This document shows, one piece after another, positions 37,733 through 38,519 of a stretch of 64,000 nt of DNA (position 1 is its first letter; each line of letters opens with the position of its first letter). The notes beneath the pieces are model-generated. The model worked only from the letters and a program-made list of their open reading frames with translations, had not been told where the DNA came from and ran no database searches. This DNA comes from Camillea tinctor (taxonomy: Eukaryota; Ascomycota; Sordariomycetes; Xylariales; Xylariaceae): NCBI GenBank assembly GCA_022578605.1, contig MU394110.1, positions 210,832 through 274,831 on the forward strand, read 5' to 3'. The translations under genes were made by a program, and so were the position numbers.

Positions 37733-38383
37733 AGTTGAATATATTCTACCTAAACAGTCCATATTTAGTGAATTAATTATACACCTAATTTCCATGTTAA
37801 TGTAAATATTGCTCTGTAGTTCTTTATGGATATATATATCAGATAAAAGGTACCTGGTGAGGGACTAACACGACAACCAACTCAGATGTCATGAAACTTT
37901 TTGTAAGTACTTCGTGGGAACCAGTAATAATGGATATAACACGGCTTTAATATTCAATATTTCATGAGCTTATCCCACGCCTATGTCCTACTTCAGCAGA
38001 TTTCCGGATACCACTAAACACGCATTGTGCAGTTCACATGCATCTTCACGTGAAGGAAGAATCATGCAAGCATATTAGAGAAAATAACTATTACAGCAAA
38101 GGTTAGTGGGGTATTGTAAATTAGAGGGGCATCAATATTGCCGAGAACACAAACAAATACGAAAATAATTGAGCAGATATAAATAAGAGGAGACTTGGGA
38201 TTTGTGGTTTTTTTTTAATGAAAAAAAAACAATAGGTAAAGTATTTGAAACCGAATAACTAATTTAATGTGAGAAAAAATTGGATGACCCAAGTAAAATA
38301 GAATCGAATAAAAAAAGAAAGAAAGAAAGAGACAGAAAAAAAATTGGTTGCAATCTCAGTTGTCTGAGAAGCATCAGGAATTG
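37733..38383. other. Intergenic, A-rich
   Basis: Spacer between the permease and the tRNA gene. It holds poly-A tracts near 38219-38229 and 38308-38343; the last one is the likely Pol III terminator of the tRNA. No gene was recognised. Confidence 0.5.
38336..38343 (-). terminator. Likely Pol III terminator (T8)
   Basis: Eight A on the plus strand, hence eight T on the tRNA's coding strand, about 41 nt past the tRNA 3' end. A run of at least four to five T is the normal Pol III stop signal in fungi. Confidence 0.6.
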
Positions 38384-38519
38384 AGCCCAATGCGGGGGTC
38401 GAACCTATGAATTAAATCGTCAGGATTACTGAACTCGAAGCCGGGAATTGCTTTAGTATAAACTCACCCGCAACCTTGAGATTAAGAGTCTCACGCTCTA
38501 CCGATTGAGCTAACCGGGC
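38384..38519 (-). tRNA. tRNA-Lys(CTT) with a 63-nt insertion in the T arm
   Basis: Removing 38405-38467 leaves an exact 73-nt cloverleaf. The acceptor stem is GCCCGGT/ATTGGGC, the D arm GCTC-AATCGGTA-GAGC, the anticodon arm TGAGA-CTCTTAA-TCTCA (anticodon CTT, Lys), the variable loop AGGTT and the T arm GCGGG-TTCGACC-CCCGC, with T at position 73. The internal A box (TAGCTCAATCGG) and B box (GGTTCGACCCC) are both intact in the DNA; the insertion only lengthens the distance between them. No canonical intron is present at position 37/38. A T-run lies downstream on the coding strand. All stems pair, which argues against old pseudogene decay. Whether the insertion is removed, and by which machinery, is unknown. 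Confidence 0.9.
38405..38467 (-). other. Non-canonical, spliceosomal-looking intron in tRNA-Lys T arm
   Basis: A 63-nt insertion between positions 52/53 (or 53/54, since a G is shared). On the tRNA strand it starts GTGAGT, has CTGAC 15 nt before the end and finishes TTCATAG, matching donor, branch and acceptor of the protein-gene introns in this window. The ends can also pair weakly (TGAGTT with AATTCA). Confidence 0.75.

Follow-up and report, generated by a model that had tools for sequence, protein, structure and literature searches.

Three tRNA-Lys(CTT) genes of the fungus Camillea tinctor are interrupted in the T arm, at tRNA position 52/53, by inserts that carry the signals of spliceosomal introns. 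We consider it likely that these genes give rise to Pol III transcripts from which the 61-66-nt T-arm intron is removed by the major spliceosome. A sequence-only reading had proposed a spliceosome-type intron for one gene, and this proposal is now supported by two more loci, in which diverged inserts occupy the same nucleotide and show the same signals while the exons are unchanged. From these features and from an mRNA-type insert in the U6 gene of the same genome, we infer that the genes are transcribed by Pol III and that their transcripts are spliced, with the spliceosome as the agent.

Anatomy of an interrupted tRNA-Lys(CTT) gene

The first of the three genes lies at 38384..38519 of the window, i.e., the stretch of 64,000 nt that was analysed, on the minus strand, as do all its parts given below. 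Including the insert, it spans 136 nt. It matches Rfam RF00005 at 49.6 bits (gathering score, 29), and nothing else in the window matches Rfam at the gathering score. The RF00005 alignment has 69 nt in place of 6 T-loop positions of the model. When 38405-38467 were taken out, a 73-nt tRNA-Lys(CTT) cloverleaf resulted, which bears out the earlier description of a lysine tRNA with a 63-nt T-arm insert. The window yielded no tRNA in ARAGORN (bacterial code, linear), for which the insert is presumably responsible. The 5' exon (38468..38519, tRNA positions 1-52) is the same in seven loci of the genome, barring an 8-nt intron at 37/38 in four of them, and the 3' exon (38384..38404) supplies the remaining T arm and the acceptor strand with one change, at position 68. 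No open reading frame of at least 250 codons lies over the tRNA in the window, and none of at least 80 codons over the tRNA in the stretches around the two further interrupted loci (C18 and C66). To judge from this, all three look like stand-alone genes.

The 63-nt insert (38405..38467), a putative U2-type intron with counterparts in C18 and C66, begins with GTGAGT as its candidate 5' splice site (38462..38467). It contains the branch-point-like CTGAC (38419..38423), whose branch A at 38420 lies 16 nt (inclusive) from the insert end, and finishes with ATAG, of which TAG (38405..38407) would be the 3' splice site. At the level of sequence, the exon-insert junction could lie equally well at 52/53, 53/54 or 54/55; the GT-AG rules pick 52/53, the first of the two positions considered before (52/53 or 53/54).

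Pol III is directed to tRNA genes by internal A and B boxes, each with its own consensus. Both boxes of the window gene are whole, as had been claimed: the A box region TAGCTCAATCGG lies at 38501..38512 and the B box GGTTCGACCCC at 38395..38405, with the final G of the insert replacing G52 as the first base of the B box. The promoter is undamaged by the insert because this last base completes the B box. The T8 run, also pointed out before and likely the Pol III terminator, is real (38336..38343) but lies 40 nt past the tRNA end, behind a 3' trailer (38344..38383) that is common to the seven tRNA-Lys(CTT) loci. Intact boxes would equally be expected if the loci were kept as TFIIIC/Pol III binding sites, i.e., as boundary elements and not as tRNA genes. 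We regard this as very unlikely, given that the whole tRNA including anticodon and acceptor is kept, plus the splice signals, and not the boxes alone.

Over 45 nt, the trailers of the seven loci share 0.51-0.98 identity. Two hairpins are possible in the 40-nt trailer, the first of which pairs with the tRNA 3' end and competes with the acceptor stem; the predicted minimum alternates between acceptor stem and first hairpin from copy to copy, sometimes even after splicing. Pair statistics were computed on seven rows of related loci, one of them slipped by one column. Pairing was kept in 97.1% of cells compared to 90.4% in shuffled alignments (0/500 shuffles as high), and six cells were changed on both sides compared to 2.0 (2/500 as high). 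Two other counts did not exceed the shuffles, namely pairs with a change on either side (3 vs 1.7, 100/500 as high; both sides changed in each) and further pair types (9 vs 8.1, 188/500 as high), and the first hairpin, which overlaps the tRNA, showed no two-sided change. Similar to all seven tRNA-Lys(CTT) genes, three tRNA-Tyr genes (L081, L082, L083) have long trailers with a hairpin (by eye) before the T run, whereas in many other tRNA genes of this genome T4 follows after no more than about 20 nt.

Two designs among seven tRNA-Lys(CTT) loci

The assembly of C. tinctor (Xylariales; 44.7 Mb, 154 contigs) was searched at the DNA level with the interrupted gene and with a canonical gene as queries. 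Of the proteins encoded in the window, two match C. tinctor proteins at 100% and 99% identity, and another shares 86% identity with a protein of Biscogniauxia mediterranea. Although not exhaustive, both searches returned the same seven tRNA-Lys(CTT) loci. In four of them (C48, C47, C22, C1), the T arm is unbroken and an 8-nt intron, CTTAAGTA, lies at 37/38. The other three, which sit on different contigs, have no 37/38 intron and carry inserts of 63 nt (C60, the window gene), 61 nt (C18) and 66 nt (C66) at 52/53. Compared to the canonical nuclear tRNA introns of their four sister genes, the interrupted genes differ in intron position, length and signals. Exactly one intron, at 37/38 or 52/53, was present in each of the seven genes found, and no intron-free tRNA-Lys(CTT) gene was among the matches of the two non-exhaustive searches.

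With the introns removed, six of the seven genes are identical over 73 nt. C18 and C66 match the four canonical genes at 73/73 nt. The window copy does so at 72/73; its lone change, C to T at position 68, replaces the G-C pair 5:68 by a G-U pair, so that pairing is kept. At 0, 0 and 1 exon changes in 73 nt per interrupted copy, no pseudogene-type decay of the exons was found, and removal of the insert leaves the complete cloverleaf and conserved sequence that a functional tRNA-Lys(CUU) would have. Within the 60 nt upstream, the three interrupted genes share 0.28-0.38 identity with one another, while canonical genes share up to 0.67. Between 60 and 200 nt downstream, identity was 0.19-0.45 over all pairs, with figures that stand without a shuffle control. 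Canonical pairs are about equally unlike there, so that the downstream flanks speak neither for nor against retroposition.

The sequence-only reading had held that many intact copies elsewhere together with a lack of RNA from this locus would mark a dead copy. At most half of this applies: there are four other genes, each with a 37/38 intron of its own. The two further loci are strong evidence that the window gene is neither a lone dead copy nor an assembly error. Assembly error was set aside because three contigs carry different inserts. More elaborately, one old disrupting insertion could have been followed by duplication, leaving three dead copies. Eukaryotic D- and T-arm insertions are described as occurring mostly in one of many synonymous genes and as supposed pseudogenes (PMC4090602), and four other isodecoder genes do exist here. 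However, the 219 exon nucleotides of the three copies contain one change, with its pair kept, while the insert cores are near shuffle level; the splice signals are kept and trailer pairing is largely kept. We therefore rate three dead copies as unlikely. Diverged inserts with kept signals and unchanged exons are in keeping with genes under selection that contain a real intron, and not with one dead copy. Concerted evolution could keep the exons alike, but it must then spare the inserts with their signals. The three interrupted genes may nevertheless be dispensable, because the four others can supply the tRNA.

Among at least 59 matches of a tRNA search of the genome (63 of 1531 candidates scored), the interrupted ones were C60 and C18; C66 was absent from these matches and came from the DNA search alone. 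ARAGORN read most of the other 57 as intron-free or with an intron that lies in the anticodon loop or close to it; one is unnamed and a few look doubtful.

Splice signals of the inserts and the probable removing machinery

Introns of the U2 type start with a GTRNGT-like 5' splice site, and their branch site, YTRAY, precedes the 3' end by 10-25 nt. In all three inserts, GTNAGT at the start and YAG at the end are kept, and so is YTRAC, whose branch A lies at 14-16 nt from the insert end. Their 5' splice sites (GTGAGT, GTAAGT, GTTAGT) are GTRNGT-like, with GTTAGT departing from R at +3. The branch motifs are CTGAC (C60), TTAAC (C18) and CTAAC (C66), the latter two at a like place to that of the window copy, and the ends of C18 and C66 are TAG and CAG. 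Once these signals were trimmed, the insert cores shared 0.40 identity in each of the three pairs, whereas shuffles gave means of 0.31-0.34 (sd 0.08). For the whole inserts, identity was 0.41, 0.48 and 0.55 compared to 0.30-0.34 in shuffles.

Under an i.i.d. model of the same composition, the chance of the signal set at fixed boundaries is ~1e-6 per insert (4 of 4,000,000 directly), a figure that serves only as a guide, given that the pattern was written post hoc and that the inserts are non-independent if they have a common ancestor. With free boundaries, the window shows no enrichment of the strict set (10 occurrences, this insert included, vs 6.3 +/- 2.9 in Markov shuffles and 4 in the reversed sequence). 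The set derives its weight here from the fixed boundaries and from recurrence in three loci. As a lone query against the genome, each insert matched only itself in a DNA search that is not very sensitive (a query of the last 42 nt of the C18 insert plus the 3' exon missed the 3' exons of the other loci). As each of these not very sensitive searches gave the insert itself alone, the idea that the inserts are copies of a mobile intron was rejected.

For comparison with mRNA introns, annotated C. tinctor proteins were used to map four introns in two genes of the window, namely three in an amidase gene (58, 75 and 57 nt) and one in a laccase gene (62 nt). They start with GTGAGT, GTGAGA, GTATAT and GTTCGT, all end in CAG or TAG, and have branch-like motifs (CTAAC twice, CTGAC, CTAAG) 13-17 nt from the end. 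The earlier statement that the tRNA insert has the same signals as the mRNA introns of the window is thus broadly fair.

The sole U6 match above the Rfam cut-off in the genome (47 of 2662 candidates scored) has a 60-nt insert, GTAAGT...CTAAC...CAG. A Pol III transcript in C. tinctor therefore very likely needs the spliceosome already. In length and branch distance, the tRNA inserts resemble the mapped amidase, laccase and U6 introns; they end in YAG and measure 61-66 nt, compared to 57-75 nt for these five mapped or inferred introns. We do not claim that the inserts originated from the U6 intron, as their core identities to it are inconsistent across the three (C18, 0.50 vs 0.34 +/- 0.07 in shuffles; C60, 0.44 vs 0.32 +/- 0.09; C66, 0.17 vs 0.31 +/- 0.07). 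The U6 insert (L118:1501-1660) also contains GTTCGAATC, which is B-box-like.

Introns of fungal U6 snRNA and U3 snoRNA genes are the known system in which, like here, GT...branch...AG interrupts a small structured RNA gene, and U6 is likewise a Pol III gene. In contrast, the host here is a tRNA, whose introns another machine normally removes. U3 and U6 are described as the only small structured RNAs so far known to be often interrupted by introns (PMC5832005), and the mRNA-type U6 intron of fission yeast is spliced and thought to derive from reverse splicing (PMC10484740).

A different agent would be at work if the insert were an ectopic tRNA intron like those of red algae or archaea; the tRNA-splicing endonuclease would then excise it and tRNA ligase would seal the exons. 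The position would suit such an intron: in Cyanidioschyzon merolae, nucleomorphs and archaea, ectopic tRNA introns likewise lie in the T arm, at or adjoining 53/54, as reported at 53/54 for C. merolae (PMC9602550) and archaea (PMC4090602). The C. merolae introns are tied to the splicing endonuclease and bulge-helix-bulge motifs, and for the nucleomorph introns (3-24 nt, Guillardia theta) no known mechanism is given in the account consulted (PMC4090602). In a crude bulge-helix-bulge check, C60 formed 4/4 central pairs if G-U counts. However, C18 and C66 formed 3/4, each of the three loci did so in another register, and outer pairs numbered 1-2/4. The canonical genes scored 3 and 3 of 4, so that the check hardly discriminates and is too weak to exclude the endonuclease. 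Apart from the T stem and a hairpin of 3 pairs that lies entirely within the 3' side, the consensus fold shows no junction pairing common to all three. Unlike known ectopic tRNA introns, the inserts have U2-type signals and, by crude check and consensus fold, no bulge-helix-bulge shared by the three loci was seen. Removal by the endonuclease would leave GTNAGT, YTRAC and YAG in 3/3 inserts unexplained, and we consider it unlikely.

The RNA could also be functional unspliced, with a giant T loop, for which the structure allows because the T stem is predicted to be able to form with the insert in place. A cloverleaf of this shape is the predicted minimum for the C60 and C18 bodies, but the predicted minimum of C66 differs from it, and the insert sequences are hardly conserved outside the splice signals. 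A giant T loop would, moreover, lose the T loop-D loop contact, which counts against function without splicing. We regard such an RNA as highly improbable.

Candidate processing route, origin and wider search

If the inserts are spliceosomal introns, Pol III would transcribe from the internal A and B boxes to the T run some 40 nt past the tRNA. GTNAGT, YTRAC and YAG would then be recognised by the major (U2-type) spliceosome, which would remove the intron as a lariat and join the exons. As the T stem is predicted to be able to form in the unspliced RNA, with the first G of the insert as position 53, end processing may come first; end processing and modification would be as usual. The product would be a tRNA-Lys(CUU) identical (for the window copy, nearly identical) to that of the four sister genes, whose 37/38 intron would be handled by the tRNA-splicing endonuclease.

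The genes with the T-arm intron are exactly those without the 37/38 intron. One isodecoder may be served by two unrelated splicing machines, with four genes dependent on the endonuclease and three on the spliceosome. Tentatively, the intron could have arrived by reverse splicing into a pre-tRNA already spliced at 37/38, followed by reverse transcription and gene conversion. This scenario as a whole is rather doubtful, yet its single route through reverse splicing and reverse transcription would account for the absence of the canonical intron from all three interrupted genes. Separate loss and gain is possible, as are three independent gains at one site, because the inserts are not similar enough to demonstrate common descent.

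C. tinctor belongs to the same order as the Hypoxylaceae. Proliferating (stw)introns of that family are likewise a case of recent fungal intron gain; they are highly alike in sequence (PMC8469720), whereas the three tRNA inserts are hardly alike and each was unique in the genome search. Among titles and abstract starts of open-licence literature, no report of a spliceosomal intron in a nuclear tRNA gene was found, and the string 'spliceosom' does not occur in the main text of a tRNA intron review as consulted (PMC4090602). Nuclear tRNA introns are taught as a class apart from mRNA introns, with a different enzyme. If our interpretation is true, a tRNA family matured by the spliceosome joins two pathways held apart, and the spliceosome is able to act on a very short Pol III transcript. 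The seven genes, with one intron of either kind in each, would also be a natural test bed for intron gain. The position-68 base of the window copy would mark its mature tRNA, which gives a definite prediction.

A genome-wide search for further interrupted tRNAs used the motif YAGGTTCGANYCC, which occurred at 67 places compared to 17 in the control. Retrieval of 65 places gave 63 distinct contexts, and the remaining two places were C60 and C66. A loose rule assigned 43 of the 63 contexts, not individually read, to a dispersed hairpin element. Of the other 20, nine contexts had no visible tRNA; the rest were C18, one tRNA-like hairpin and three each of element variants, Leu/Ser tRNAs and tRNA-like repeats. 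No further interrupted tRNA was found among the 20 contexts read, the 43 sorted by rule, and C60 and C66. Wider motifs gave 452 places compared to 369 in the control and 220 compared to 145. In viral and prokaryote contigs, the tRNA-Lys 5' exon plus splice-site pattern had 0 matches, as expected.

The dispersed element (43 contexts plus the three variants; e.g., L035, L051) is near-palindromic, about 75-80 bp long, has a T-arm-like centre and occurs genome-wide. One copy has a predicted hairpin of -26 kcal/mol, and no relation of the element to the window tRNA was seen. At L049:1131-1524, tRNA-like 5' and 3' ends, with acceptor and T arm pairable by eye, enclose about 320 nt with self-complementary stretches. 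Two small sets of tRNA-like repeats (L105, L114, L115 and L099, L102, L103) share bodies or flanks and are possibly tRNA-derived.
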